A DNA stretch of 24,712 bases from a virus, in IMG/VR virus record IMGVR_UViG_3300010392_000868, positions 1 through 24,712 of that record. One strand, written 5' to 3'. Position numbers and translations under genes: made by a program. Positions 1-24,712 of this stretch are shown in pieces; positions within the stretch are counted from its first letter, which is position 1; each line of letters begins with the position of its first letter. The notes under the pieces were generated by a model. The model saw only the letters and a program-made list of their open reading frames with translations. It was not told the DNA's origin and ran no database searches.

Positions 1-3000
1 CTTGTACTAACAGAATACGCTTGTGATATTAATGTAGATGTATCATTTACAACTGGTACTCCAGATGCCTTAATTCTTACAGAATATCCTGCCGATATTA
101 ATGAAGATTTATCTATTCAAGTTGGAATAGATTCATTAATCCTTACGGAATACCCTGCTGAAGTAAATGCTGAGACTTCGTTTACTACCTCTACACCAGA
201 TGCATTAATTCTTACGGAATATGCAGTTACAGTTCAAGCAGATGTAGACACCAATATTACAACTAACGCTCCTGATGCATTAATACTCACAGAGTACTCT
301 TGTACAGTTCAGGCTGATGTTGATACCAATATTACAACGAATGCTCCCCAGGCATTGATATTAACAGAGTATGTCTTTGGTCAAAATTTAGGGATTAATA
401 TTGATGCTACTAAGCAATCATTAATTCTTACTGAATATTCATGCACAGTGAATGCTGAGATTGCATTTACGACAAGTGCACCTGATGCATTAGTAATTAC
501 TGAGTATGGATGCAATGTAAATTTAGGAACTAATATTGATGGTGGTATTGATAACTTAATACTAACTGTATATTCATATACACATACATATGATGTAAAT
601 CTTACTACTAATCTAGATTCATTAATTTTAACTGAATATCCAGTTACTCTTAATATTGCTACAGGTATTACTACAAATACACCTGATGCACTAATACTTA
701 CTGAGTATGGTTGTACTGTTAAGTACGATATTAATGTTACTGCAACAGAACAATCATTAATCCTTACAGAATATACATGTGATATTAATACTAATCTTAG
801 TATTGTAGCTGGAATAGATTCTTTAATTCTTACTGAATACGCAGCTGATATTAATTTAGATATTAGTATTACTACAGGAACACAGTCATTAATTATTACT
901 GGTTATCCAGTAGATGTTAATGAAAATGTAAGTATTTTAACAATCGTACAAAGCTTAATATTAACTGAATATGCTTGTACTGTTAATGCTGAAACAGCAT
1001 TTACAACAAATGCCCCAGATTCGTTAATTTTAACTGAACATGTATTTGGGTATGACTTTGGTAAATTAGTTTTATGTAATTCAGAGTCATTGGTTCTTAC
1101 CGAGTATCCTTGTACCGTAGTTATTGAAACTACAGTTGATGCAACAGTTGATTCGTTAATTCTTACTGAATATCCTGCAGTTGTTAATTTTGCTCAGGTA
1201 ATGCACTTTATACCTCAGTCTCTGATACTGACTGAGTATCCAGTAACAATTCAATTTGATACAGGAGTCTCAACACAACCTCAGTCATTAATAATAACTG
1301 AGTATCCTGCTGCTATTACAATACAATTTGGAATTGCTGCTAATACAGATTCTCTGATATTAACGGAATACAGTTTTACTACTAAATTTGATTCAAATTT
1401 CATAGGAGCAAACTTTGCTCCATTTGTATTAACTACTTATCCTGTTCAAATTGGTATCAGTACAAATATTACAGCAACTGTTGATCCTCTTATTCTGACT
1501 GAATATGTTGCTACGTTACTTACACCAACAAACGTAAGTGTTGGTACAGACTCCCTGGTTCTAACAGAATACCCAGCTGATGTAGCTCTTGATCTACAAA
1601 TTCAAGCAACAAGTGAGAGTTTAAATCTAACAACTTATCCAGCTGATATTTATTCAGTTGGAACTATTATTTATTTCGATAATATTCCTACTTGCAACTT
1701 AACGACATATGACTTTGGTGTAACAGGAAGCTGGGTAATTTATGGTAAGACAGATAATTTAGTTCTTACAGAATATCCATTTGTTCTTCAAGATAACCAG
1801 AGTATTTATGCAGAGTATCAGTCTTTAATCATTACTGAGTATCCTGCAGTTGTTACTGCAGATATAAATATTGATTGTTTTATAGATACTCTAATTATTA
1901 CTGAATATCCATGTCAGATTGGTGTAGGAACACCAATTGCAACAAATACTGATTCACTTAATATTACAACCTATCCAGCTATAGTTAATAGTCCAGTAAA
2001 TATTATTACAACTGTAGATTCATTGAATCTTACAGCATTACCACTTATTCCAGTTAACTTCTTTACAGTTAATATAGATGCTACATCTATTCCATTGGTT
2101 CTAACAGAATATGGGTTTACATTAGAGTTAGGAGTTACAGTAACAACTGAAGTTGATAATTTAATTCTAACTTCATATCCAGCTGCTATTAATGCTGAAT
2201 TTAGCTTAATTACCAATACTCCAGATAGTTTAATTTTAACTAGCTATCCATTTGCACTTAACTTTATTGGTAGTGGTACTGTTTACGCTATTCATGATCT
2301 TTTAATATTAACTGAGTATCCAGCCGAAGTTAATGTTCCAATTGAAATTACTACTGGAACACCTGACTCATTAATATTAACTGAATATCCAGCAACTCTT
2401 ATTCAAGCATTTACGGTTGAAGGAACAACTCAAGATTTACTTCTTACAGAGTATTCATGTGATATTGCTTATCATGTCAATATTAATACAACTATTGATG
2501 GTTTATCTCTAAATGAGCGTCCAGCAACTGTAAATGTACCAATAACATTTGAAACAGTACCTGGGTCATTAATTCTAACAACTTATCCAACACTTGTTGG
2601 GCTTACTACATCAGTTGATGTAACACTAGATACTTTATTACTAACTGAATATCCATTTACTCAGGGACTTGGAACAGTTATTAATGGAACTTTGGATTCA
2701 TTAGTATTAACTGAATATCCTGCAGCTATAAGTCTTAGTGCAGATCTTGTTATTGGATTTAGTTCACTCATCCTTACAGAATATCCAGCAGTAGTGAATT
2801 CTGGGTATGCTGTTAATACAAATATTGATTCACTAATTTTAACCGAACAACCTGCAACTGTTAGATATAACGTAAATATTTCAGCTGGATATGATGTTCT
2901 ACAATGGACTAATTATTCATTTGATTTAAATCAAAATGTTACAATTGATGCAGCAACTCAGGCATTAATACTGACTGAACAAAATGTTGTAATTAATAAA

Positions 3001-3444
3001 GGGATAAATATTCCAATTGGAATAGATTCCTTAATTCTTACAGAACAAGTTGCTGCTATTAATGCTGCTCTCAATATTCCGGTAACTTCACCAGATGGAC
3101 TAATCCTAACGCCCTACCAGGCTACGATTAATACTGGAATTGGAACAGTTCAGGTTAGTGCTCAATCCCTGATTCTAACTGAATATCCAGCCTCACTTAA
3201 TACAGCAATTGGTATCCAGACAGGTACTCCAGATTCACTTGTATTAACTGAGCACCAATCTACTATAATTCATAATATTGGCGTAGATATTACTGCTGGT
3301 ACGGATTCACTTGTATTAACGGAATATGGCTGTACGGTTAACATACCGATTGAGTTTATTGGTACTAATCCCCAGGAACTAGTACTTACGACTTATCCAG
3401 TAGTAACTGAATTTATCCCGATTAACTGGTTATTAGTTGTAGAA
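1..3444 (+). repeat. About 51 tandem coding repeats of 66-75 bp (22-25 aa)
   Basis: Reading frame 1 from base 1 gives about 50 complete units plus a final partial one. The L-[IV]-[LI]-T-[ES]-Y core recurs every 22-25 codons. Unit length varies by 1-3 codons at the loop (DS versus PDS/PDA). The repeat is conserved in protein but not in DNA: the core is spelled with many codon combinations (TTAATTCTTACAGAATAT, TTAATATTAACTGAATAT, CTGATACTGACTGAGTAT). Degenerate units occur at about 1640-1740 (LNLTTY, CNLTTY), 2026-2096 (LNLTALP), 2506-2570 (LSLNERP) and 2890-2960 (LQWTNYS). Confidence 0.95.
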
Positions 3445-3600
3445 GATAGTCGACATATTCTACAATCACCACAAATAACTTTAACTGGTCTTGGTGGTGC
3501 TCCAGGAGAAGAAATTCCGACTACAGAAGTACCAGTAGGACGAGTAATTAATATAGAACATGAAAATAGACGTTTAAGTATATTAAAAGAGGTAATATGA
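1..3600 (+). CDS. Giant repeat protein (51 LILTEY repeats), C-terminal part; probable virion fibre/appendage
   Basis: The frame is open from base 1, so the N-terminus lies outside the window; a TTG at 355 would start mid-repeat and is not credible. The visible 1199 residues are about 51 tandem units of 22-25 residues with consensus S-L-I-L-T-E-Y-P-A-x-V-N, then an alternating polar/hydrophobic strand ending in D-S or P-D-S/A. Each unit looks like two beta-strands, suggesting a beta-solenoid or fibrous beta-spiral shaft. After the last unit (codon near 3379) a non-repeat tail of about 65 residues follows, including a Gly/Pro-rich stretch and a charged C-terminus. It lies on the tail side of the lysis and portal genes, where N4-type phages keep tail and appendage genes, and it is followed by two structural-type small genes. 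I infer a virion fibre or appendage role; I do not recognise a named family. A membrane or secreted host-interaction protein is the alternative. Confidence 0.85.
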   Translation, partial: LVLTEYACDINVDVSFTTGTPDALILTEYPADINEDLSIQVGIDSLILTEYPAEVNAETSFTTSTPDALILTEYAVTVQADVDTNITTNAPDALILTEYSCTVQADVDTNITTNAPQALILTEYVFGQNLGINIDATKQSLILTEYSCTVNAEIAFTTSAPDALVITEYGCNVNLGTNIDGGIDNLILTVYSYTHTYDVNLTTNLDSLILTEYPVTLNIATGITTNTPDALILTEYGCTVKYDINVTATEQSLILTEYTCDINTNLSIVAGIDSLILTEYAADINLDISITTGTQSLIITGYPVDVNENVSILTIVQSLILTEYACTVNAETAFTTNAPDSLILTEHVFGYDFGKLVLCNSESLVLTEYPCTVVIETTVDATVDSLILTEYPAVVNFAQVMHFIPQSLILTEYPVTIQFDTGVSTQPQSLIITEYPAAITIQFGIAANTDSLILTEYSFTTKFDSNFIGANFAPFVLTTYPVQIGISTNITATVDPLILTEYVATLLTPTNVSVGTDSLVLTEYPADVALDLQIQATSESLNLTTYPADIYSVGTIIYFDNIPTCNLTTYDFGVTGSWVIYGKTDNLVLTEYPFVLQDNQSIYAEYQSLIITEYPAVVTADINIDCFIDTLIITEYPCQIGVGTPIATNTDSLNITTYPAIVNSPVNIITTVDSLNLTALPLIPVNFFTVNIDATSIPLVLTEYGFTLELGVTVTTEVDNLILTSYPAAINAEFSLITNTPDSLILTSYPFALNFIGSGTVYAIHDLLILTEYPAEVNVPIEITTGTPDSLILTEYPATLIQAFTVEGTTQDLLLTEYSCDIAYHVNINTTIDGLSLNERPATVNVPITFETVPGSLILTTYPTLVGLTTSVDVTLDTLLLTEYPFTQGLGTVINGTLDSLVLTEYPAAISLSADLVIGFSSLILTEYPAVVNSGYAVNTNIDSLILTEQPATVRYNVNISAGYDVLQWTNYSFDLNQNVTIDAATQALILTEQNVVINKGINIPIGIDSLILTEQVAAINAALNIPVTSPDGLILTPYQATINTGIGTVQVSAQSLILTEYPASLNTAIGIQTGTPDSLVLTEHQSTIIHNIGVDITAGTDSLVLTEYGCTVNIPIEFIGTNPQELVLTTYPVVTEFIPINWLLVVEDSRHILQSPQITLTGLGGAPGEEIPTTEVPVGRVINIEHENRRLSILKEVI

Positions 3601-3601
3601 T

Positions 3602-3790
3602 ATGTTGGCTGTAGACTCTACTAAACATACTTTATCAGATGCAGGTAATATTGTTTTAGAACAATATACTCCAGCTTATGATATAGATGATATACGGACA
3701 TTAGCTATCAATGAACAAGAACTTGAACGTACACTTTCAATAAATGAAAATACATATGAAGATAATAAGATTCATAAGCATCACTTATAA
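3602..3790 (+). CDS. Small hypothetical protein, 62 aa
   Basis: The ATG lies one base after the TGA of the giant repeat gene, so translation is probably coupled to it. The product is acidic and polar with a His-rich C-terminus (KIHKHHL), no signal peptide and no membrane segment. Residues 16-28 (NIVLEQYTPAYDI) resemble one degenerate copy of the upstream SLVLTEYP..VN repeat, which may mark a small partner or a split-off end of that protein. No family is recognised. Operon position and tight spacing are the main reasons to accept it as a gene. Confidence 0.6.
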   Translation: MLAVDSTKHTLSDAGNIVLEQYTPAYDIDDIRTLAINEQELERTLSINENTYEDNKIHKHHL

Positions 3791-3808: not shown

Positions 3809-4177
3809 ATGCCAAAATCTGCAAATAATAAGGTGCTTGATGGATCACTTAACATTGTTGGGTCAGCAAACTTAATGATTGTTTGTAATGCTTTTCCTTA
3901 TTCAAGATATGATGCAATAAATACATTTGCTTTAGCAGATGTTGTAATGGACCCAAATACAGATTTTGTTACTGCTGAAGGAACCATAGACGGACGTAAA
4001 ATTATTATTGCAGCAAAAAGTACAGTTGCTGTAGATACTACGGGAGAAGCAACACATATAGCTTTGCTTAATGACACAGACTTGTTATATGTAACAACTT
4101 GTCTAGCCCAACAATTAAATGCACTTAATACTGTTGATATACCTTCTTGGTCTATCGAGATTTCTGATCCAATATAA
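3809..4177 (+). CDS. Probable phage virion structural protein, 122 aa
   Basis: The 122-residue protein begins NNKVLDGSLNIVGSANLMIVC and ends near SWSIEISDPI. This start/end pattern (an N-terminal VLDxxLN segment, an N-P-F-Y/YALA-like middle, a DTxLLYVTT strand and a W-S-I-E-I-S/A-D-P end) is, from memory, a small structural protein widely shared by unrelated tailed phages and of unknown exact role. It has no signal peptide or membrane span. A GAGG-type ribosome site (TTGAGGAC) precedes the ATG. It sits next to the adaptor-like gene at 4187, and the two often occur together in other phages. The family assignment is recognition from memory, not a search. Confidence 0.65.
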   Translation: MPKSANNKVLDGSLNIVGSANLMIVCNAFPYSRYDAINTFALADVVMDPNTDFVTAEGTIDGRKIIIAAKSTVAVDTTGEATHIALLNDTDLLYVTTCLAQQLNALNTVDIPSWSIEISDPI

Positions 4178-4186
4178 GGATTTAAC

Positions 4187-4501
4187 ATGTCACATACATT
4201 TTACAAAGATCCAGGTGAGAAACTCGATTACAAGTTTGATTGGGCACCTCTTACTAATGAACGTCCTGATGGTATTTCTGATTGGCTCAGACTTCCAGGA
4301 GAAACTATTGTTGAGCATATAGTGACTGCTGATGTTGGAATTACTGTTCATAGTTCAGTAATCGCAGATGACGCTACTAGTGTTGTAGCTTGGATCTCAG
4401 AAGGGACAGCAGGTGTTCGATATAGAGTTAATTGTAATATAACAACTTCAAGTGGTCGCCAAGGTGAACGCTCAATTTTCATAACAGTATTGCAGAGGTA
4501 A
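4187..4501 (+). CDS. Fibre-tail adaptor-like protein, 104 aa
   Basis: The small beta-rich protein contains the series YKDPGEKLDYKFDW near residue 6, SDWL...GETIVEH in the middle, then a V-V-A-W-I-S-E-G-T-A-G strand and a C-terminal Y-R-V-N-C-x-I-T-T-S-x-G-R-x-x-x-R-S-I-x-I-x-V motif. This is the pattern of a common small phage protein in which a single Ig-like beta-sandwich links fibres to the tail (fibre-tail adaptor type). It lies 9 bases after the preceding structural gene and just before the endolysin, and close to the giant repeat protein, so it may help attach that protein to the virion. The attachment role is inference; the family match is from memory. Confidence 0.65.
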   Translation: MSHTFYKDPGEKLDYKFDWAPLTNERPDGISDWLRLPGETIVEHIVTADVGITVHSSVIADDATSVVAWISEGTAGVRYRVNCNITTSSGRQGERSIFITVLQR

Positions 4502-4503
4502 TT

Positions 4504-4971
4504 ATGGCTAGTTTTGGAGTTTCATCAAAAGGTAGATTGCTTACATGCTCTTTAGCATTACAGGCATTATTTAATCGTGTTGTATATAAATATGATTGTT
4601 CAATAATGGAAGGGCATCGTGACGAAGAAACACAAAATAAATACTTCGATCAAAAGAAGAGTAAAGTTCGATGGCCTGATGGAAAGCATAATACAAAGCC
4701 CTCTTCGGCTGTTGATGCTGGTCCTTATATTCACGGTACTGGTATCCCTTGGCCTCAAGTACCTGACGATTGGAATGATAAACCTGCTCGAGATTTGTAT
4801 GTAAAACAAATGATGCAATTTGCTCATTTTGGTGGATATGTACAAGGTACTGCTGAAGTAATGGATATTCCTATTCGTTGGGGGGGTGATTGGGATAAAG
4901 ATAATGATTTACGAGATAACAAATTTGATGATTTAGTGCATTTTGAACTAGTGGAGGTTCCTCATGAGTAA
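4504..4971 (+). CDS. Endolysin, M15-family L-alanyl-D-glutamate/DD-type peptidase
   Basis: This 155-residue single-domain enzyme resembles the phage T5-type endolysin. Visible motifs are GHRDEETQN (residues 37-45), KHNTKPSSAVDAGPY (61-75) and DDLVHFEL (142-149). By comparison with T5 endolysin the zinc ligands would be H62, D71 and H146, with D143 as catalytic acid/base. The two-residue longer H-to-D spacing is normal in the phage branch with a KHNxxPSxAVD motif. It would cut the peptide stems of peptidoglycan at the end of infection. There is no signal peptide, so it needs a holin; one is encoded at 5516. N4 itself uses a different endolysin (an N-acetylmuramidase), so this is a swap within the same genomic slot. 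Confidence 0.92.
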   Translation: MASFGVSSKGRLLTCSLALQALFNRVVYKYDCSIMEGHRDEETQNKYFDQKKSKVRWPDGKHNTKPSSAVDAGPYIHGTGIPWPQVPDDWNDKPARDLYVKQMMQFAHFGGYVQGTAEVMDIPIRWGGDWDKDNDLRDNKFDDLVHFELVEVPHE

Positions 4972-7482: not shown

Positions 7483-9693
7483 ATGGCTAACGAACCCTCA
7501 TATCAATTAGATAAAGATCCTGCTGAAGTATCTCTTGAGCAGTTAGAAGGCCGTAGTAAGCTTACTAACTGGGAAAATGAGCCTTCGCTTAAAATGCTTA
7601 AGCAAGATTATCAAGATGCCAAACCATCACATACACATCAAGTTAGTAGAATTAACGGATGGTTAGATAATTTACTTATTCGAGGGAAGACTAAACTTCC
7701 AAAGAAAGACAGTAGATCTTCTCTTGTACCTAAACTTATTCGTAAGCAAGCTGAATGGCGTTATGCTTCGCTTAGTGAACCTTTCTTAAGTACTAATGAT
7801 ATTTTTAACACAGCTCCTGTCACTTATGAAGACAAAGATGCAGCTATTCAAAATGGATTAGTACTAAATAATCAATTTAATACAAAATTACAGAAAGTTA
7901 AATTTATTGATGAGTATGTAAGAACTGCTGTTGATGAAGGAACAGTTATTGTTAAAGTTGGTTGGGATTATGAAGAGGAAGTAAACGAAATAGAAGTAAT
8001 TGATTATGAACTTCAACCTTCAAATGATCCTGCACGAATTCAAGAATTTCAAGAGCGTCATCAATTAATGCTACAAAATCCATTAGCAATGGAACAAGAA
8101 GATCCTGAAGTACAGGAACTTCATTTAGCATCAATGCAAGCAGGAGTAGCATTAGAAAAAGTTGAAGTCGGTACTCACATGGAAGAAGAGATTACTGTTC
8201 TTAAGAATCAACCTACTTTAGAAGTTTGTGATTATAATAATGTTCTTGTTGATCCTTCTTGCCAGGGAGATTTAACTAAAGCTAATTTTATTAATTATAG
8301 TTTTGAAACTTCTCTCTCAGAACTTGAGAAAGATGGAAAGTATTCCAACCTGGATCAAATTAATATTTCTGGTTCATCTCCACTAGCAGAAGCTGATGAT
8401 CATAAGAGTCAGGATGATTCTTCATTTAATTTCTCTGATAAACCTCGTAAAAAATTCATTGCTGTTGAATATTGGGGATTTTGGGATATTCACAATGATG
8501 GAATTGTAGCTCCATTTGTTGCGACATATGTTGGAAATACTCTAATCCGAATGGAAGAGAATCCTTTCCCAGATGGGCAATTACCTTTTATTTCAGCTCA
8601 ATACTTGCCTGTCCGAAAATCCATTTATGGGGAACCTGATGGAGAACTCTTAGAAGATAACCAGAAAGTAGTAGGGGCTGTGACTCGAGGTATGATCGAT
8701 ATTATGGGTAGATCTGCCAATGGGCAGACCGGACTCAAGAAAGGTGCCCTGGATGTCACAAATAAGCGTAAGTTCGATAGAGGCATGGATTATGAGTTCA
8801 ATTCTAATGATGATCCTCGCCAAGCCATTCATATGCATACTTTCCCTGAAATCCCTAAATCTGCTGAATTCATGCTAAATCAGCAACATGCTGAAGCTGA
8901 GAGCCTCACAGGTGTTAAAGCCTTCCATTCTGGTATCTCAGGACAGTCTTTAGGTGTCACTGCTACAGGCATTAGAAGTGCTCTGGATGCTACTTCTAAG
9001 CGTGAATTAGGGATATTGCGCCGATTAGCTCAAGGAATGAAGGATATTGGCCGTAAAATCGTCAGTATGAATGCTATTTTCCTTACTGATGGGGAAGTTA
9101 TTCGTATTACTAATGAGGAGTTTATAGAGGTAAATCAAGACGATTTAGCCGGAAACTTCGATTTAACCTTAACTATTAGTACTGCAGAGGCAGATAATGA
9201 GAAGGCGCAGGAACTAGCCTTTATGCTGCAGACTATGGGCAATAACATGGACCCAGCTATGTCTAAGATGATTTTGACTGATATAGCCAGGTTAAGGAAT
9301 ATGCCAGAATTAGCTAAGAGTATTGAGAATTATCAGCCTCAACCTGATCCTCTGGTACAACAAAAAGCTCAATTAGAAATTGCTCTACTCCAGGCACAGA
9401 TTAATAATGAAAATGCCAAGGCTCAAGAGAATACAATGGATATACGGCTTAAACAGGCTAAAGCTCAGACTGAAGAATCTAAGGCACGGAATCTCAATAG
9501 TAAGTCTGATAAACAAGATCTGGACTTCTTGGAACAAGAATCTGGTGTTAATCGACAACATGAGATGAATAAACTAGATCATGATCGAGGTAGTAAACTT
9601 GACCTGGAAACAGCTAAAAGTATTATGGGTCCAGATGACAAAAATGAGCAAAAAGCAGAGGATGTTGCTACAACTGGTTCAGAAGCACTATAA
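7483..9693 (+). CDS. Portal protein, N4 gp59-like
   Basis: The 736-residue protein would form the ring at the head vertex through which DNA is packed and ejected. Length, an N-terminal RKQAEWRYASLSEPFLST segment (near 87-104), an acidic insert, the QLPFISAQYLPVRKSIYGEPD block and the DIMGRSANGQ block are typical of N4-type portals. From about residue 625 on, a long Gln/Ala/Lys-rich helix (QKAQLEIALLQAQINNENAK onward) forms a C-terminal coiled coil, as in podovirus portals with an extended barrel. Position ahead of the scaffold and capsid genes supports the call. It is the first gene of the head module and is preceded by TAGGAATTACT as ribosome site. Confidence 0.9.
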   Translation: MANEPSYQLDKDPAEVSLEQLEGRSKLTNWENEPSLKMLKQDYQDAKPSHTHQVSRINGWLDNLLIRGKTKLPKKDSRSSLVPKLIRKQAEWRYASLSEPFLSTNDIFNTAPVTYEDKDAAIQNGLVLNNQFNTKLQKVKFIDEYVRTAVDEGTVIVKVGWDYEEEVNEIEVIDYELQPSNDPARIQEFQERHQLMLQNPLAMEQEDPEVQELHLASMQAGVALEKVEVGTHMEEEITVLKNQPTLEVCDYNNVLVDPSCQGDLTKANFINYSFETSLSELEKDGKYSNLDQINISGSSPLAEADDHKSQDDSSFNFSDKPRKKFIAVEYWGFWDIHNDGIVAPFVATYVGNTLIRMEENPFPDGQLPFISAQYLPVRKSIYGEPDGELLEDNQKVVGAVTRGMIDIMGRSANGQTGLKKGALDVTNKRKFDRGMDYEFNSNDDPRQAIHMHTFPEIPKSAEFMLNQQHAEAESLTGVKAFHSGISGQSLGVTATGIRSALDATSKRELGILRRLAQGMKDIGRKIVSMNAIFLTDGEVIRITNEEFIEVNQDDLAGNFDLTLTISTAEADNEKAQELAFMLQTMGNNMDPAMSKMILTDIARLRNMPELAKSIENYQPQPDPLVQQKAQLEIALLQAQINNENAKAQENTMDIRLKQAKAQTEESKARNLNSKSDKQDLDFLEQESGVNRQHEMNKLDHDRGSKLDLETAKSIMGPDDKNEQKAEDVATTGSEAL

Positions 9694-10077: not shown

Positions 10078-11367
10078 ATGAGTACTCCTGCCGAAAAAAT
10101 AGAGGATGAATTGAAAGATGATGAAAATGAAGACAAAAATCTTTCAAGTCCTTTAGAAGTATCTGATGATGATCTGGCAAATATGTCAGTTGAAGATATA
10201 GAGAAACTCGCCACTAAAGCTGAAGCAAGTGATGATGATTCTGATGATTCTGATAAAGATGATGATACTGATGATTTAGATAAGGATGATGATAGTGAGG
10301 ATGCAGACAGCGAGGATGATGATCAATCTGATACTGATGATGATAGTGATGATGATGACGTTGATGATACTGACTCCGAAGATGGTACTGATGACGACAA
10401 AGATTCCGATGAAATCACAGATGATGATACTTCCTCCAAAGCCCAACCTTTTGATGAATCAAAATCGAAAACCAAAGGAAAAAAAGAAGAGAAGAAAGAT
10501 GCGGATTTAGATGATGAATCCGTTAATGGTAAAGTAAATTACCAAGCCGAACATGAAAAATTATTGGCTCCATTTAGAGCAAATAATAAAAACATGCAAG
10601 TTGATAGCGTAGATGAAGCGCGAACATTGATGCAAATGGGAGCTAATTATAACAAGAAGATGGCTGGACTTAAGCCCAGCTTAAAAATTGTTAAAATGCT
10701 CGAAAATAACGATTTGCTCGATGAAGACAAATTAAGTTTTTTGATTGACCTGGATAAAAAGAATCCAGAGGCTATTGCTAAATTTATTAAAGACAGTGGT
10801 ATTGACCCACTGGAACTTGATTTAGATACTAGCAAAAATTATAAGTCCAATACTTACACTGTAAATGATAAAGAAGTCGAATTAGATGGAATACTTGCTG
10901 ATATAAAAGACACAGAATCTTTTAATAAGACTATCGACATCATAGGCAATAAGTGGGATGAGCAAAGCAAGCAAATTTTATTAGAACAACCTGATGCTAT
11001 TAAAGTTATAAATGACCATGTTGCTACAGGTATTTATGACAAAATAGATGAAGTCCTTTCAAAAGAACGTGCAATGGGACGATTTATTGGTGTACCTGAT
11101 GTTGAGGCATATCAACAAATTGGAGATGCAATAAATGCTGCAGGTGGATTTGCTCCATCTGATACCCAGAACACCAATTCTTCGAACTCTTCAAAAAATA
11201 GCTCAAAGAGTAAATCTAATAAAAGTGCTGATCCTGAAGTCAGAAAGCGTAAGAAAGCTGCTGGCTTAACTAAGCCCGCTAGTGGAAAAAAGAGGGATGC
11301 TGATTTTAATCCTCTATCAATGTCTGATGAAGATATTGAAAAAATGACCACTAGTAAATTTATTTAA
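10078..11367 (+). CDS. Probable scaffolding protein, N4 gp57-like, highly acidic
   Basis: The 429-residue protein sits immediately before the capsid gene. Residues 51-117 are almost only Asp, Ser, Thr and Glu. A helical middle part (about 150-350) follows, then a Ser/Asn/Lys-rich linker and a basic patch (PEVRKRKKAAGLTKPASGKKR). Scaffolds often combine an acidic disordered body with a short basic or helical coat-binding end, so the call is scaffold by position and composition. The motif MSVEDIEKLATKA (36-48) recurs at the extreme C-terminus as MSDEDIEKMTTSKF (415-428), an oddity described in the findings. No protease domain is seen. Confidence 0.8.
   Translation: MSTPAEKIEDELKDDENEDKNLSSPLEVSDDDLANMSVEDIEKLATKAEASDDDSDDSDKDDDTDDLDKDDDSEDADSEDDDQSDTDDDSDDDDVDDTDSEDGTDDDKDSDEITDDDTSSKAQPFDESKSKTKGKKEEKKDADLDDESVNGKVNYQAEHEKLLAPFRANNKNMQVDSVDEARTLMQMGANYNKKMAGLKPSLKIVKMLENNDLLDEDKLSFLIDLDKKNPEAIAKFIKDSGIDPLELDLDTSKNYKSNTYTVNDKEVELDGILADIKDTESFNKTIDIIGNKWDEQSKQILLEQPDAIKVINDHVATGIYDKIDEVLSKERAMGRFIGVPDVEAYQQIGDAINAAGGFAPSDTQNTNSSNSSKNSSKSKSNKSADPEVRKRKKAAGLTKPASGKKRDADFNPLSMSDEDIEKMTTSKFI
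10228..10428 (+). repeat. Low-complexity Asp/Ser coding tract (GATGAT-rich)
   Basis: This tract inside the scaffold gene is dominated by GAT/GAC codons with interspersed TCT, AGT and ACT, giving residues 51-117 of the scaffold. It is a simple-sequence region prone to length change by slippage in steps of three, which would keep the frame. The frame-shifted reading at 10286-10510 is only its shadow. Confidence 0.85.
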
Positions 11368-11390: not shown

Positions 11391-12875
11391 ATGGCTATTT
11401 ATAATGATCCGGTAGGTGGTAATGAATCCACCATTGGTACGCAGATCCGTACCGACTTCTATCAGAAAAAGGCTCTGATTGAAGCTAAGAAAGAACAGTT
11501 CTTCAGTCAATTGGCTGATGTGACTTCAATGCCTAAAAACATGGGTAAGAAAATTAAGCGTTATCATTACTTACCTCTCTTAGATGATGCCAATATCAAT
11601 GATCAAGGTATTGATGCTGCTGGAAATGGAACAGAAAATGTATCAGTAACATTTATGTTTACTGCTCCTGATGCCAATGACAGTAATAACGGACATGTTC
11701 GTTTTTATCTGGTTGGTGAAGGTGATGATCCTACTCCAGCTACTGCTGCTGCTGCTGCCATTGCTGCTGCTAAAGCTGCTGCTGAATCTTTCTTTGTCAA
11801 AATGACAGGCGATGCAGGTATCTGGAACACTGACTATGCTACAACTGTTGGTGATCTTCAGACAGCTGGTTGGTTGGTAACTGATGATACTGAAAGTGAT
11901 CATGGTGAAGGCGTTCAAGATGCATCTGCTGCAGTATCTGCAGTTGGTAATCTGTATGGTTCATCCAAAGATGTTGGTACGATTGCTGCTAAACTTCCAG
12001 CTCTGTCTGAAACTGGTGGTCGTGTTAACCGTGTTGGTTTCAAACGTATTGAACTTGAAGGTACTATCGATAAGTTTGGCTTCTTCGATGAGTACACTCA
12101 GGAATCAATGGATTTTGACTCCGATGCTGACTTGGAAATGCATATCACTCGTGAAGCAGTCATGGGTGCCAATGAGATGACTGAAGATGCTCTTCAGATT
12201 GATCTACTCAATGGTGCTGGTGTTGTTCGCTACACAGGTGCTGCAACTGGTACTTCAGAATTGCAGGGTGACGGTACACCAGATGTACTGACTTATGGCG
12301 ATCTGATGCGTCTTTCTATCGATCTGGATAACAACCGTTGTCCTAAAAATACGAAGATCATCACTGGTACTCGTATGATTGATACCAAGACCATCGATGC
12401 TGCTCGTTACCTGTATTGTGGTTCAGAAATGCTTCCAACTTTGAAAGCAATGCAAGATCTGCATAGTAACCAGGCATTTATCCAGGTACACCAGTATGCT
12501 GCAGGTACTAACGTAGCTGTTGGTGAAGTTGGTTCAATTGATCAGTTCCGTATCATTGTTGTCCCTGAAATGATGCATTGGGCTGGTGCTGGTGCAGCTG
12601 TATCTGCTAACAGTGGCTATCGTGAGTCTGGTGGTAATTACGATGTATTCCCAATGTTGGTAGTTGGTTCTGGTTCCTTTACTACGATTGGTTTCCAAAC
12701 TGACGGTAAGACCGTTAAGTTCAAAATCACTCATAAGAAACCTGGTCCTGAAACTGCAGATTCTTATAACGATCCTTATGGCGAAATGGGCTTTTACAGC
12801 ATCAAATGGTACTACGGTACTATGATTCTGCGTCCTGAACGTCTAGCCGTTATCAAGACAATTGCTGAATGGTAA
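11391..12875 (+). CDS. Major capsid protein, N4 gp56-like
   Basis: The 494-residue coat protein has the N4-type signature [19 protein letters not shown] (187-205), [11 protein letters not shown] (209-219), [21 protein letters not shown] and [13 protein letters not shown]. The N-terminal arm includes [20 protein letters not shown]. From memory, N4 gp56 is about 400 residues, so this protein is longer. The excess appears to lie in residues 90-185, including an Ala-rich run (117-131) and the [18 protein letters not shown] segment. Codon use differs from the neighbours (more CGT, CTG, GGT, AAC), as expected for the most highly expressed gene. GAAGGTATATAACTA precedes the ATG, and a strong terminator follows the stop by 18 bases. 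Confidence 0.95.
11739..11783 (+). repeat. GCT triplet tract in capsid gene (Ala-rich segment)
   Basis: A run of GCT/GCC codons, broken by ACT, ATT and AAA, encodes Ala-rich residues 117-131 of the capsid protein. It is a short triplet repeat that can change length in frame. In the protein it forms a likely helix within the region that makes this coat longer than N4 gp56. Confidence 0.85.
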
Positions 12876-18185: not shown

Positions 18186-20096
18186 ATGGCTTTAACGTGG
18201 AGAAATGTTACTGGTGTTAGTTCTAATGCAGGTACACAAGCAGTAGCTAATGCTGGAGATTTATTTAATAAAGCTTTTAGTAAAGCTGAAAAAATTGCTT
18301 CTGCCCATGATACAGAAGTACAACAACGAACAGATGCTTCTCTTCGTGATCAATTATCCGGTCTTACCTCTGAAGACCAACTAGATACTTTTAGACAAGA
18401 TTTATTATCACAAGGTACAGATCAGTATTCCCCTGGATTACTAGATAAACTAGTTGATGCCCAACGTCAGGACATTCGTGCTGAAGATGAATTTCAACGT
18501 ACTACTTTGCGTAGAGAAAGCAAAGAAAACTCCTTACGCCTTGCTAAAGAAACAGCAAGTATTGATCCTGAACTTGCTGGTAATCTTAAAGCTCATCAAG
18601 GCGCAATTGAGCATATAGAAGCTTTAGATCCTACTAATAGAGGATTATTTACTCTTAATAAATTAGGTAAAGTTGTTGTTGATAAGAAAGCTGATCCAAG
18701 TTTAGTTAATACTTTTATTGATAAAGCAAATGAATTAGGACGAGTTGAAATACCAACTGTTAAAGATCGTACTAAAGAATTAGCAGAAAGATTATCTGGA
18801 CCAGCATTTAGTGTTGAAGATCAAGAAAATGCTAGAAAATTTATGTTAGAAATAGCTAATCGTAAAGATCTTCCAGAAACTGCACGGGCTTCTATTACTG
18901 CTAATACTGAACAACAACTTGCTTTCCAGAAAGATGATATTAACCGTATTAACTCATTAGAAGCAGATTTACTTGCAGCTGTTGATAATCCTCAAAATCC
19001 ACGAGATAAAGGTAAAGAGAATTTAGATGCCATTAATTATTTACAACAAAATTTTAATGAAGGACATTTAAATCTTTTTGGTTATGGCAATGTCGAAGGC
19101 GGAAAAGAGCTAACTCAAAAAGCAGGTGGATGGTTAACTCAAGGTATTACTCGAGATGATGTTACTCATCAAATTAGTCCAACAATGCTGTATAACACTA
19201 TTGGAATTGCTGCTGATTTTGAACAAGATATGTTTGATGCAGCTGGAGTAGATATTGAAAAAATGGAGGATGCTTTAGTTGCTGAAGCTAAAAAGAGTCC
19301 TGTATCTACACCAGCACAACAAAGAGCTGCTATACGTTTACGAATTGGGGAAGAAAGACGTATATCACGTTTAACTACCCAACAAGGTATTAATAACTTT
19401 ATTCGTGAGGTTGATGCACAGAATGGAATTATTAACCCTAAACAGAATGCTTTTTTATATAGTCCTGAATTACAACGTACTTTTAAAGCTCATGATAGAG
19501 ATAAAGCTGCAACTTTTGCAAAAGAAGAAGAAGCAAAACAAAAAGCATTTGATCGTACTGTGCAACAAAATACACAGGATATTTCTGGATTAGGAACTGC
19601 TGCACCTGGAACTACCCCATTTGGTCCTGGTGGAAGTGGTACACCTTCTGCTGTTGCTGATGATCTTAAAGCATCACTTGCTGCTCCAACAGTAACTCCT
19701 AGAATTAAAGTTGTTCCTGCTAAACCAGGAGTGACAGCTCCTACAGCTATCGTGAAACAAAAAGAAGATGCTGTTGAAAAACAATTTACTCCTAATGCTG
19801 ACGATACTCGTCTAGAAGCATGGAATAAACGTAATAACAAAGCTAAAGCTATGTTGGAATTGCGTGATGATCCTGAGTATGCAGAAGCACAGAACAAATT
19901 AGCTCTCCAAAAAGCTCAAGAAGAAGCAGAAGCTGGACGTACACAAGATTTATTAAGACGATCTATTTCTGATGAAAGATTACGGAATAGTCCTGCTGTT
20001 AAAAAAATTCTACGCGAGCAACGAGAACGAGGTAAAGAAGAAGCTGCAGAAAGACGCAGAAAAGTAAAAGAGTTCTTCGGCTTTGGTGATTCTTAA
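18186..20096 (+). CDS. Large helical internal virion protein, N4 gp51-like position
   Basis: The 636-residue, mostly helical and charged protein lies directly before the virion RNA polymerase gene, as N4 gp51 does. It starts MALTWRNVTGVSSNAGTQA. Residues 40-115 are rich in Gln, Arg, Asp and Glu. From about 480 to 520 there is a Gly/Pro/Thr-rich linker (GLGTAAPGTTPFGPGGSGTP), and the last 60 residues are Arg/Glu-rich helix (RRSISDERLRNSP then REQRERGKEEAAERRRK). No lysozyme or transglycosylase motif is seen, unlike T7 gp16. By position it is an ejected partner of the polymerase. Its stop overlaps the next ATG (TAATG). Confidence 0.7.
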   Translation: MALTWRNVTGVSSNAGTQAVANAGDLFNKAFSKAEKIASAHDTEVQQRTDASLRDQLSGLTSEDQLDTFRQDLLSQGTDQYSPGLLDKLVDAQRQDIRAEDEFQRTTLRRESKENSLRLAKETASIDPELAGNLKAHQGAIEHIEALDPTNRGLFTLNKLGKVVVDKKADPSLVNTFIDKANELGRVEIPTVKDRTKELAERLSGPAFSVEDQENARKFMLEIANRKDLPETARASITANTEQQLAFQKDDINRINSLEADLLAAVDNPQNPRDKGKENLDAINYLQQNFNEGHLNLFGYGNVEGGKELTQKAGGWLTQGITRDDVTHQISPTMLYNTIGIAADFEQDMFDAAGVDIEKMEDALVAEAKKSPVSTPAQQRAAIRLRIGEERRISRLTTQQGINNFIREVDAQNGIINPKQNAFLYSPELQRTFKAHDRDKAATFAKEEEAKQKAFDRTVQQNTQDISGLGTAAPGTTPFGPGGSGTPSAVADDLKASLAAPTVTPRIKVVPAKPGVTAPTAIVKQKEDAVEKQFTPNADDTRLEAWNKRNNKAKAMLELRDDPEYAEAQNKLALQKAQEEAEAGRTQDLLRRSISDERLRNSPAVKKILREQRERGKEEAAERRRKVKEFFGFGDS

Positions 20097-23000
20097 TGGC
20101 TCAACAACCTACTCCTTATGGACAACAGGTATTAGCAAGTTTAGATTCTGATGTACAAGGTTTTGTCCCAGGTGATCCAGATTTAACTGCTGCCTTAACT
20201 CGGTTTCGTAATGAAGCTCAGGGGCGTGATATTGTGCCTGATGATTTACGCGCACAAGGGGTAACTTCGAACACTTCTATACCATCTGTTACATCAGATA
20301 CTCCTGAAGTAGCTCCATCGATAGATCTAGCAGCTGCTAAAGAAAAATTATCATTACCTCAACAAAAAGCTATTTCCCTTGATGAAGCAAAATCTAGATT
20401 ATTTGGAGGATCTACTGAACCTCAATTTAGTTTAGAAGAAGCTAAATCTTTATTAGGTGGTAAAGAACCTCCTGCTTTTAGTGTTGATGAAGCTAAAAAT
20501 ATTTTATCAGGAACTACTCCTCTTGATGCAACTGTTGCAGATAAACAAATAACAGTCGCAGCTAAAACTTTAGAAAAACAAGAATTATTTGGTGGTCCTG
20601 GATTGGGTGAAGTTCCACAGGAGTTCTTAACTGAAGAAGATCAAGCCAGAGCTATACAAAATGAACAAGAAGTAGAAGCTGCAAGGTTAGCTCAAACTGA
20701 ACGAGAAGCCAGAGCATTACTAACTGATGAAGAAGCAGATACTGTTGGTGGTTATATTGCTAATCTTGGTTTAACTTTCTTTTCAGGAGCTGCCACTGTT
20801 GTTGGAGACTTATTAAAAGCTCCTACACATGTTGCTGATTATTTAGATGGAAGAGGAATTACTGATGCTGATATTGGATTATATAATAGTATTGGACGTA
20901 AATTAGCTGCTGGTGAACAGTTATCTGAAGCAGAAGACGCATTTATTGCTACTGAAAAATACACTGACTTAGGTGATATTGAATCACGCAAAGAGTTTAT
21001 TAATGTTATTGATGGTGGACTAGAAACTATTTCTGGTTGGGTCAATGATAATAAAACAAGTAAAGCTTTAGCAAAACTTGGAAAGACATCTGAACAAGCT
21101 GCTGACTCCTTTATCAAAGGAGAATACATGGAAGGTATCAGTAAGTTTGCAGAAGGATTATTAACTCTTGCTGCAGATGATACAGGTGCTGCTGTTGAAC
21201 TAACTGTTAATTCACTTCCTCAAATGTTTGTATTAGCACGACAAGCAATTGTTGGTGTAGGTTCACTTGGTTTAAGTCAATATAGTGAAGCAATAAATGA
21301 CTTTGTTGAAGAACATGGTCGTCAACCTACTGAGGGAGAAAAAGCATTTGCAGGTATATTATCTTTCACTTCTGCTGGTCTTGATGCTCTTGGTGCTAAA
21401 TTTATTCTAGGAGCTAAAGCATTACCTGGAAATATTACTAAACTAGCTGCCAAGTTAGGATTAGAAGTTGCTAAGAAAACAGTTAAAGCAACTACAACAG
21501 CAGTTAAGCAAGCTAAGAAGGGTGCAATTAAAACAGTTGCTAAAGGAGCTGCTCAAACTGGTAAGTCAGTTGGTGTTGAAGGATTAACTGAAGGTAGCCA
21601 AGCATTCTTACAACAACAAGCTGCTAAACAAGATTTATCTGCAACAGATCTTCCTGAAATACTTACAGAAGCAACTGTAGGTGCAGTAGCAGGTGGAATT
21701 ATTTCTGGTGGTGTAGAGACAGTTAGAGCTACTCCTAAAGTTGTAAAAGAAACTGCAAAGACTACTAAGAAAGCAGCTCGTAAAGTTGGTATTGGTGATC
21801 CAACTAAAGTCATTACTCAGGCTAAAAAATCTGGTGATGTCGAATTAGGAATGAATACAATTCTAAAACTTAAGTTTGCAGACTTAACACCTGAAGAACA
21901 GGTAACACGAGTTGAAGAATATGAATCATTCCTTGAGACATTTGAGGCTAAAACAGAAGAAGAGATTTCAAATTTAGATCCTGAAACTGAATCAGATGCT
22001 ATACAAACAAAACAACGAACCATTACAGATTATAAACGCCGATTAGATCAATTGGTGCGTGAACAAGCACGAACAGAAAGTGGTCGTGTATTTAGAGAAG
22101 CTGTTGATATTCTTGATCCTCAAACAGTTACAACAACGGATGCTCAGGGTAAAAAAGTAACTTCAACCCCTGAACCTCGAACTAAAGAAGTTGTAGTTTC
22201 TGCTATTGATTCAATTATCGATAATATTCAAACCAGTGGTGATCTGTCTTTAAATCAAATTAATCGTACTCTGGGTAGTAAAGAATTCGATGATAATGCT
22301 ACAAACAAACAGAAAGAATTAGCTAAAGATTATAAAGAGTTTAAGGTAAATACGGAGACAGTTAAAAATTTACCTGAAGATGCACAAAAAAGCATTGAAG
22401 AAGTACACGAAGATATTCTTACAGGAGGAAAAGGGTTTGCAGGAATTAACCAGCATATGGCTAATTTCAAAAAGGCTTTAGTTGGTAAAAAGAAAATAGC
22501 TGCTCAAAATACTATTCGTCATTTACAGGATTTTAGACAAGAACTAAAAAATAAATTAGTTGATCCAGAAACTGGTTTAGAAATTAGTAATGCTCCTGTA
22601 TTTGTTGAAGCTGTTCAATCTGAGATTGCATTGCTTAGTTCTACCATTAATCAGATGAAGAACATGGGAATTGATGTTTTTGGTTTCAAGAAGGGAGTAG
22701 ATATACCTCCCGAAAAAGTTCCTGAGAAGCAGGAAAAAGGAGTTGAACCTGAAAAGAAAAAAGAAGCTAAACCTAAAGCTAAGGCCAAACCTGCAAAAAA
22801 GGAAAAAGTCACAAAGAAGAAAGAGGCAAAGCCTGAGCCTAAATCTAAACCTGAGCCTAAAGTTGAAACTGCTGTAGAACCAGTAGTTGAAACTAAAGCA
22901 AAACCTGTAGCTCAAGAAATTCCTAGTATCGATGGAAGTAATATTAATGAAGTATTAGCAATTTTAGAAAATCTTCCAGAAGAAGTTATTACTCAACGAG

Positions 23001-24712
23001 TAAAAAATATTATTGGGGAAGTTCAAAAGATAGCCAAGAAAGGATCAATTAGTTCTGTTCAGGCTGCTAAATTAGATAAAGAATTTAAAGTAATTAACGA
23101 TACTATTTCTGGTAAGAAAGTATTAGCTGGAGATAAGCAACAGGGTACTCATAATCCAGAAGAATCTGTGGAAGGTGCTACTACTGTCGGTGGACAAGTT
23201 ATAGGTAAAACTACTGTCAAATATGACAAGGCAACCAAAGGAGATAAATCTACAGTTGAAGAGAGATTATCTATCCATGATTACCTAAAGGTTAAGAAGG
23301 GGTTAAAACCTGTAAGTATGTTTCATAAGGTGCATAACTTTTTTAGTTCTACGAAAACCAAAGATAAAAAATTAAAAGCAGAGATTGCTGCTTTATTGCC
23401 TAAATTAACAGATGAGCAATTTAAGGCATTTAAGTTCTTACGAAACTTTCATGATGAATTTTCAGAAAATTTATTAAAAGTAGTTGGTAACTTAAATTCT
23501 GAATTTATTTTTAAGAGTCAGATTGAAGGAGTCATATCTGAGGATGGTAAAGCTAAGAATGAAAATCCTGGTGATCCTGCTGCCTACCTAATTAATATTG
23601 ATAAAGATGGCAATAAATACCTGAATGAAAATCTCGTAGCTACTATGAGTATGGTTATTCTTGATTGGATCAGTAAAGAAGCCCAGAACACTCTCTATAA
23701 TGAAAAAGAAACAGTTAATAATTTTCTTGGATTACCTATAGAAGCAACTGCAAAACAAGAAGCTTATGAAAATTTAACTACTGCAGGTCTACCTCGTAAT
23801 ACTTTAGACGATGCTTTAGGGCGTGAGATATTCAAACAATTGGGGCTTGAAGCTCAAGAAAATATTGATGGTGATTTCATTCCTCGTTTACGTTTAGCTT
23901 TAGGTAAGATGGCTGTTAATGGAATGCTTCAAAGTGATCTAGTTACTCAGACAACATTCAAGACAGAGGAAATGATTGATTGGGGTGGTAACGTAGTTAC
24001 ATTAGGTGTTCCTGGTTCATTAACAAGTTTTATTCGTGCAGAAAGTGATCAAGATCCTGTTAATAAATATAAATATACTCTTTCTAAAGGTAAAAAAGGA
24101 TTACAAACATATGTTAAACGAATAAAAGATAGCGATCATTTAATAAAAACCTTATTTGATATTTCTAAGGATATAGCAGGACCTGTATTTACGGCTGCTA
24201 AATCTTTAAAAGACATACCTAAATTTATTAACAAGAGTCCTGTTGGAGAAATACCAGAACAGATGCGTAAATCTATTCTGGCTTACTCCCAAGTCGAGTG
24301 GGAAATAAAAGAAAATATAAGTGATATTTCTGATTTTATGGGAGTCAACTTTGTTAAGAGTATGTACGGATACAATTTTAATGTTGATGAAGAGCATATA
24401 ACTGAACAGCCAGGAATAACTGCACGGAATCAAGCTATTGAAAAAGAAATGAGAGACTTTGGTGAGTTTCGAACTTTAGCTCGAGAGGAAGGTAAAACTG
24501 GATTCTTCTTTAATCATGTCATGGATAAAAACATGCGTGTACGTCTGGACAGTTCTACTGTTAATCCCCAGGCTAGTAAATTACACAGACATTTAATTGG
24601 TGTTAAGGAGTGGACTAACGAATTAGATATGAATAATCCTGATCATGCATTAGGATTTAAAATGGCTGTTGCCCAAGCTTTAACTGTTGGTGGGTTTAAA
24701 ATTGAAAAAGAA
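20096..24712 (+). CDS. Virion-encapsidated RNA polymerase (N4 vRNAP-like), partial
   Basis: An open frame of 1539 residues runs off the right edge. The catalytic region begins near residue 1060, close to where the N4 mini-vRNAP begins (998). At 1477-1481 is DKNMR, then VRLDSSTV and NPQASKLHRHLIG (1490-1502). In N4 the counterpart is TRVGR followed by NPQSAKL, and in T7 RNA polymerase DWRGR followed by NPQ. GFKMAVAQAL near the end also matches N4 (QLGLAQAL). Motifs A, B and C, with the catalytic Asp, Lys and Tyr, lie beyond the window. Before the core are four short repeats (76-144), a Gly/Ala-rich hydrophobic module (373-540) and a Lys/Pro/Glu linker (867-940). The enzyme would enter the cell with the DNA and transcribe early genes. 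Confidence 0.9.
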   Translation, partial: MAQQPTPYGQQVLASLDSDVQGFVPGDPDLTAALTRFRNEAQGRDIVPDDLRAQGVTSNTSIPSVTSDTPEVAPSIDLAAAKEKLSLPQQKAISLDEAKSRLFGGSTEPQFSLEEAKSLLGGKEPPAFSVDEAKNILSGTTPLDATVADKQITVAAKTLEKQELFGGPGLGEVPQEFLTEEDQARAIQNEQEVEAARLAQTEREARALLTDEEADTVGGYIANLGLTFFSGAATVVGDLLKAPTHVADYLDGRGITDADIGLYNSIGRKLAAGEQLSEAEDAFIATEKYTDLGDIESRKEFINVIDGGLETISGWVNDNKTSKALAKLGKTSEQAADSFIKGEYMEGISKFAEGLLTLAADDTGAAVELTVNSLPQMFVLARQAIVGVGSLGLSQYSEAINDFVEEHGRQPTEGEKAFAGILSFTSAGLDALGAKFILGAKALPGNITKLAAKLGLEVAKKTVKATTTAVKQAKKGAIKTVAKGAAQTGKSVGVEGLTEGSQAFLQQQAAKQDLSATDLPEILTEATVGAVAGGIISGGVETVRATPKVVKETAKTTKKAARKVGIGDPTKVITQAKKSGDVELGMNTILKLKFADLTPEEQVTRVEEYESFLETFEAKTEEEISNLDPETESDAIQTKQRTITDYKRRLDQLVREQARTESGRVFREAVDILDPQTVTTTDAQGKKVTSTPEPRTKEVVVSAIDSIIDNIQTSGDLSLNQINRTLGSKEFDDNATNKQKELAKDYKEFKVNTETVKNLPEDAQKSIEEVHEDILTGGKGFAGINQHMANFKKALVGKKKIAAQNTIRHLQDFRQELKNKLVDPETGLEISNAPVFVEAVQSEIALLSSTINQMKNMGIDVFGFKKGVDIPPEKVPEKQEKGVEPEKKKEAKPKAKAKPAKKEKVTKKKEAKPEPKSKPEPKVETAVEPVVETKAKPVAQEIPSIDGSNINEVLAILENLPEEVITQRVKNIIGEVQKIAKKGSISSVQAAKLDKEFKVINDTISGKKVLAGDKQQGTHNPEESVEGATTVGGQVIGKTTVKYDKATKGDKSTVEERLSIHDYLKVKKGLKPVSMFHKVHNFFSSTKTKDKKLKAEIAALLPKLTDEQFKAFKFLRNFHDEFSENLLKVVGNLNSEFIFKSQIEGVISEDGKAKNENPGDPAAYLINIDKDGNKYLNENLVATMSMVILDWISKEAQNTLYNEKETVNNFLGLPIEATAKQEAYENLTTAGLPRNTLDDALGREIFKQLGLEAQENIDGDFIPRLRLALGKMAVNGMLQSDLVTQTTFKTEEMIDWGGNVVTLGVPGSLTSFIRAESDQDPVNKYKYTLSKGKKGLQTYVKRIKDSDHLIKTLFDISKDIAGPVFTAAKSLKDIPKFINKSPVGEIPEQMRKSILAYSQVEWEIKENISDISDFMGVNFVKSMYGYNFNVDEEHITEQPGITARNQAIEKEMRDFGEFRTLAREEGKTGFFFNHVMDKNMRVRLDSSTVNPQASKLHRHLIGVKEWTNELDMNNPDHALGFKMAVAQALTVGGFKIEKE
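20321..20527 (+). repeat. Four tandem 17-residue repeats in the vRNAP N-terminus
   Basis: Residues 76-144 of the polymerase read as four degenerate units beginning IDLAAAKEKLS, ISLDEAKSRLFGG, FSLEEAKSLLGG and FSVDEAKNILSG, at 17-18 residue spacing. Each has a hydrophobic-S-hydrophobic start, an acidic-Ala-Lys helix and a Gly end. It is a repeat at protein level; the DNA has diverged. Confidence 0.85.

Follow-up and report, generated by a model that had tools for sequence, protein, structure and literature searches.

A LILTEY repeat protein as a candidate tail appendage subunit of an N4-like environmental phage

The LILTEY repeat protein encoded at the left edge of an environmental phage contig is probably (at a rough probability of 0.58) a subunit of an N4-like phage tail appendage, that is, an adhesin, with the array as stalk, the C-terminus as collar anchor and the N-terminus as head. 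The protein would be part of the virion, its C-terminal tail, bearing the motif R-x-h-x-h-x-x-E-x-R, docking on a tail collar formed by the Gp77-like adaptor, the product of the third gene downstream. The array, with at least 51 turns of 22 residues and probably folded as a beta-solenoid or in some comparable stack of strands, would act as a stalk keeping away from the virion an N-terminal, probably carbohydrate-binding domain, putatively located on the missing N-terminus; the number of units would set the reach, about 24 nm if the rise is 0.48 nm per turn. Environmental phages commonly encode tail proteins of this unnamed kind, and none of those found here is longer.

The LILTEY array, its relatives and its predicted fold

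The window, i.e. the whole stretch of DNA analysed, is an entire virus record of 24,712 bases. The repeat ORF (positions 1 to 3600, plus strand, 1199 amino acids) has no start codon and runs off the left contig edge; the window being the whole record, the true N-terminus of the protein is absent from the data. The first-pass annotation had described a frame open to the left, a full protein larger still, and a repetitive chain of nearly 3.5 kb with about 51 LILTEY repeats, and the description holds in each of these respects: a strict core scan finds exactly 51 cores spaced by 22-25 residues, i.e. 50 complete units plus the last core (positions 1 to 3444, plus strand), and the array stops near nucleotide 3444, the last LILTEY-type core lying at residue 1127, after which the ORF continues into a C-terminal tail. 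Units are 22 (32 units), 23 (12), 24 (4) or 25 (2) residues long. The local autocorrelation of the array is 18-19 s.d. above that of shuffled sequence, with the global peak at lag 22; the periodicity is far beyond chance. The array is also acidic, with 125 Asp and Glu versus 8 Lys and Arg in 1126 residues.

The core residues recur as L1 in 49 of the 51 cores, T4 in 50, E5 in 38, Y6 in 44 and P7 in 28. A near-fixed core and a variable second strand, as first noticed by eye, are recovered as entropies below 1 bit at unit positions 1, 3, 4 and 6 versus about 2.7-3.5 bits at most of positions 11-20 (namely 11-15, 17 and 19-20). The 19 identical LILTEY hexapeptides are written in 17 DNA spellings, hence the core is kept by selection at the protein level. 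Together with a mean base identity of 50% between units, the same spellings rule out recent DNA duplication as the origin of the array; a single adjacent pair, units 4 and 5, is near-identical (a 75-nt tandem).

In the nearest relative carrying an array, contig L003, whose portal is 77% identical, 37 or more units are present and the contig edge again truncates the array. Two contigs from one sample, L093 and L094, overlap inside a LILTEY array (L093:1-44, L094:10187-10310); in L093 the start is present and about 590 N-terminal residues precede the array, the head genes being of another type. Shorter LTEY/LTEN arrays are found in L085, L097 and L099 to L104, so that the earlier guess of a repeat shared among environmental phages proves right. 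As the window, L003 and L093/L094 contigs all end inside arrays, the array seems to break assemblies, and its frequency is therefore probably underestimated. Another tail-type protein of the L093/L094 phage (L094:3721-5682) terminates in one LTLTEYPATVT unit.

One may ask whether the array is itself the binding surface, its variable second strands providing a multivalent glycan-binding or decoy face and the turnover of units driving host range. The high variability of positions 11-20 against a fixed core would suit such a role, as would the poor unit-by-unit correspondence between the arrays of the window and of L003, which fails except in the last few units. Yet hydrophobic residues occupy even positions 8, 10 and 16 in 91-100% of the 22-residue units and odd positions 9, 11, 15 and 17 in 16-28% of them, an alternation that points to partial burial of the variable half; moreover, unrelated arrays and, in L130, a Ser/Thr linker occupy the same place in other proteins (see below), which a spacer fits better. 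A binding role of the array is thus improbable.

Profile searches with the repeat match no described fold or enzyme family, which agrees with the initial failure to recognise a characterised fold. No credible match to the repeat emerges from Pfam, PHROGs, NCBIfam or PDB, and the repeat and the tail give nothing credible against PDB with phmmer or hmmsearch. A Pfam PP-binding match (E 9.3e-5), as well as G8 on L016 and GxGYxYP on L003, were taken as spurious, each resting on one or a few repeat units or on a composition-biased stretch; PHROGs matches with E values of 0.002-0.07 were set aside as weak. The LILTEY protein, taken as available with its N-terminus missing, has no match in 50,697 phage records (tblastn, E<=1e-5, low-complexity filter on). 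Repeat patterns searched in 84,980 bacterial and archaeal species, each represented by one genome, return eight single matches and no array; the LILTEY array is therefore not a common bacterial gene.

An AlphaFold2 model of seven units, based on an alignment (A2) of 22 non-overlapping repeat blocks, places strands in each unit at residues 2-5 and 14-18, with pLDDT 61 and pTM 0.50. The extended beta fibre proposed in the first-pass annotation thus finds a counterpart in a predicted all-beta, extended array, but the constant Glu-Tyr ladder that was to run along one face is not established, as this low-confidence model puts E-Y-P near or just past the end of the first strand. Foldseek searches with the array model give best E values of 0.38 (PDB) and 0.039 (viral); the PDB matches are mainly beta-helix proteins, none of them significant. 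Because AlphaFold2 over-predicts beta-solenoids for perfect repeats (PMC11795689), a periodic beta-solenoid-like fold is taken here as a suggestion of low confidence.

A Schitoviridae structural module with a tail cassette

By its sequence, the contig represents a structural module of the Schitoviridae, the N4-like phages. The placement derives from three plus-strand genes: the portal of N4/SU10 type (7483 to 9693; phrog_1216, E 1.5e-245; 57-58% identical to the best named phages), the major capsid protein (11391 to 12875; phrog_1357, E 4.2e-139) and the N-terminal part of the giant virion RNA polymerase (20096 to 24712; phrog_2206, E 8.1e-87), a Schitoviridae hallmark. The structural gene order is the same as in Vibrio phage SBP1. 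The capsid protein counts 494 residues versus 356 positions of the family profile, and an Ala-rich segment around residues 115-140 hints at a domain insertion; the gene before it (10078 to 11367), in the scaffold position, encodes a long Asp/Ser-rich low-complexity N-terminal region.

The repeat gene opens a cassette whose order is repeat protein, small ORF, 122-residue protein and Gp77, identical to that of the isolate Microcystis phage Mae-JY22; the cassette genes are present also in L003 and L008. The repeat protein ends in the C-terminal tail GRVINIEHENRRLSILKEVI (3538 to 3597, plus strand), whose R-x-h-x-h-x-x-E-x-R motif is common to proteins with other repeat types. When the last 120 residues are given to AlphaFold2 only the final hairpin is modelled, the last 20 residues forming two strands with pLDDT 67-75. 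Just past the stop of the repeat gene begins an ORF of 62 residues (3602 to 3790, plus strand) with a further tail-like copy of the motif, DIRTLAINEQELERTLSI; L003 has a comparable small ORF after its array. Several relatives carry every copy of the tail motif in a single protein, so that here the tail may be distributed between two polypeptides, or frameshifting may join them. The 122-residue cassette protein (3809 to 4177, plus strand) is 61% identical in L003 and 52% in L008, and resembles a 133-residue ORF in Mae-JY22. The Gp77-like fibre-tail adaptor, a putative collar protein of 104 residues (4187 to 4501, plus strand), matches Pfam PF23148 with E 1.9e-19 (70.4 bits, for a cut-off of 27) and PDB 8jou_D with E 2.5e-5. 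An endolysin gene follows (4504 to 4971, plus strand; phrog_465, E 4.6e-24).

In N4-like phages, the interval taken by the repeat gene carries tail appendage and sheath genes (PMC12633501). Rather than a side appendage, the LILTEY protein might then correspond to gp64/gp65, the N4 tail sheath that encloses the tail tube and attaches to the outer-membrane receptor: it lies in the same genomic interval, between the terminase and portal genes, in an order as in Vibrio phage SBP1, and N4 gp65 is similarly large (PMC12633501). Such an equivalence is very hard to credit, however, given that tblastn finds no match in the 50,697 phage records at E<=1e-5 and that the description of N4 gp65 is of ten domains, together with gp64, and not of a 22-residue array.

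Tails, middles and heads beside Gp77-like adaptors

Viral contigs were searched with the adaptor, yielding 36 loci, and with the 122-residue protein, yielding 18; 32 loci have a usable upstream ORF, and the tail was scored in ORFs ending within 1.5 kb upstream of the adaptor. The C-terminal R-x-h-x-h-x-x-E-x-R tail is present in an upstream ORF at 23 of the 32 Gp77 loci, the remaining nine having none, versus 12 of 277 other ORFs. Since the regular expression is permissive (16% of shuffled tails match), a second test relied on pairwise local alignments against shuffles among the 20 proteins with both ends. Over the last 50 residues, 66% of pairs have z>4, compared with 0.5% over the first 50 and 5% over a stretch from the middle; because the proteins were picked by tail or neighbouring genes, some of this contrast follows from the selection as regards the tail, though not as regards the unconserved N-terminus.

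A case in point concerns the slot of the LILTEY protein in two related schitoviruses. In L005 (3516-5387) it holds a Laminin_G_3 domain followed by LTGYAPT-type units and in L008 (3760-7182) Laminin_G_3 domains followed by ALHxH units; despite unlike heads and repeats, the window, L005 and L008 proteins all close with R-x-h-x-h-x-x-E-x-R. Across the survey the middles are LILTEY, ALHxH, LTGYAPT or YTLTGQ arrays, mostly of period 22, and once a Ser/Thr-only stretch of about 200 residues, lying between the N-terminal domain and the R-x-h-x-h tail (L130:4559-5992). With the last 60 residues removed, LILTEY, ALHxH, YTLTGQ and other arrays stay at period 22, L005 peaking at 24 and L126 at 18; the periods of 20-21 in actinophage-type loci (L141-L151) may reflect two ten-residue copies of the tail motif and were left out of the 22-residue arrays. 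The N-termini vary from protein to protein and are in many cases lectin-like; among these heads, family matches are to Laminin_G_3 (L005, L008, L126, L139 and L163) and to CBM96 (L117). In another schitovirus, a protein with a different repeat of 20-22 residues (L016:1262-3328) adjoins a weak BppU_N-like phrog_1084 gene instead of Gp77, which suggests that the type of adaptor is exchangeable too.

Since unrelated repeats or a Ser/Thr stretch can stand in for the middle, it is most simply read as a spacer. The C-terminal tail, by comparison, is the sole part conserved between proteins and goes with the collar adaptor gene, which suggests that the anchor is C-terminal and the tip N-terminal, though conservation of the C-terminus could instead reflect a role in oligomerisation or folding. 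The opposite, conventional polarity would have the fibre attached by its missing N-terminus, with the array as shaft and the C-terminal tail as a trimerisation or tip element. Most characterised phage fibres do attach N-terminally, DEV gp53 among them by way of a collar barrel at that end (PMC10925440); this arrangement is nonetheless rather unlikely here, for among the relatives it is the C-termini that are conserved (66% of pairs at z>4) and not the N-termini (0.5%), and the proteins of L120, L122 and L158, which have next to nothing before a lectin domain or the repeats, keep the tail.

Along the same line, the C-terminally anchored stalk proposed for the LILTEY protein may, more tentatively and at somewhat less than even odds, stand for a class of phage adhesins that is widespread, so far undescribed and of reversed polarity, with a conserved C-terminal plug in a Gp77-type collar, an exchangeable spacer that sets the reach and usually has ~22 residues per unit irrespective of sequence, and an N-terminal lectin tip, the plug occurring in schitoviruses, in a Microcystis phage and in a mycobacteriophage minor tail protein. 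Of the features that define such a class, namely a variable head, a 22-residue array and a tail beside Gp77, the window displays the ~22-residue units, the C-terminal tail and Gp77 downstream. The minor tail protein gp24 of mycobacteriophage BobsGarage (L115:8733-11021) ends in tail-like R-x-V-x-V motifs and is encoded two genes after the Gp77-like gp22.

To sum up, the tail motif together with the adaptor gene offers a simple signature by which many unannotated proteins of environmental phages could be named as adhesins, and the same signature would yield a list of their head domains as possible receptor binders. Should the anchor indeed be C-terminal, the usual rule for tail fibres, according to which the N-terminus sits at the virion, would be reversed for the class, affecting host-range prediction. 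In addition, a constant 22-residue period beneath unrelated sequences poses a structural question, namely which fold fixes the period.

Comparison with known systems

The long fibres DEV gp53 and N4 gp66 are likewise Schitoviridae appendages, with a flexible, receptor-facing role. DEV gp53 attaches by an N-terminal beta-barrel and comprises coiled coil and esterase-like domains (PMC10925440); between the LILTEY protein, its N-terminus missing, and N4 gp65/gp66 or DEV gp53, tblastn against the phage records finds no sequence similarity.

Comparable in described architecture is the three-gene module gp34-gp36 of Alishewanella phage LSH1, whose genes travel together and whose products are reported as virion-associated by mass spectrometry; one of the module proteins joins a polysaccharide-lyase-like N-terminal domain to a long C-terminal stretch for which AlphaFold gives a poor beta helix (PMC13243795). 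The likeness to the LILTEY cassette is drawn from the architecture described in that article. Slicko01, a myophage related to LSH1, encodes a large protein in which repeats, as judged by eye, come after N-terminal domains, the repeat and the C-terminus differing from those of the LILTEY protein.

Among actinobacterial phages, gp37 of Gordonia phage Gibbles and its relatives, annotated as minor tail proteins, contain about eleven GYAPTV-type units that match the L005 array, and gp37 adjoins a small tail-type gene, gp36 (phrog_644-like by eye). Gibbles gp37 differs in its shorter array, after which a different domain stands in place of the R-x-h-x-h tail, and in its actinobacterial host. Microcystis phage Mae-JY22 has the same four-gene order (XAI95683-XAI95680), including a repeat protein with an R-A-L-x-I-x-x-E-x-R tail; it departs from the window in its ALHxH repeats, in having only about eight units and in its different head genes.

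Finally, the window ORF at 4187-4501 matches gp77 of Ralstonia phage GP4 (PF23148) over nearly its full length, as well as a GP4 virion chain in 8JOU, the entry named as the GP4 structure (PMC13243795), and both adaptors are encoded alongside tail appendage genes. A collar bears the fibres of GP4 and of the schitovirus DEV (PMC10925440); the window adaptor, for its part, lies beside a protein of 22-residue repeats.
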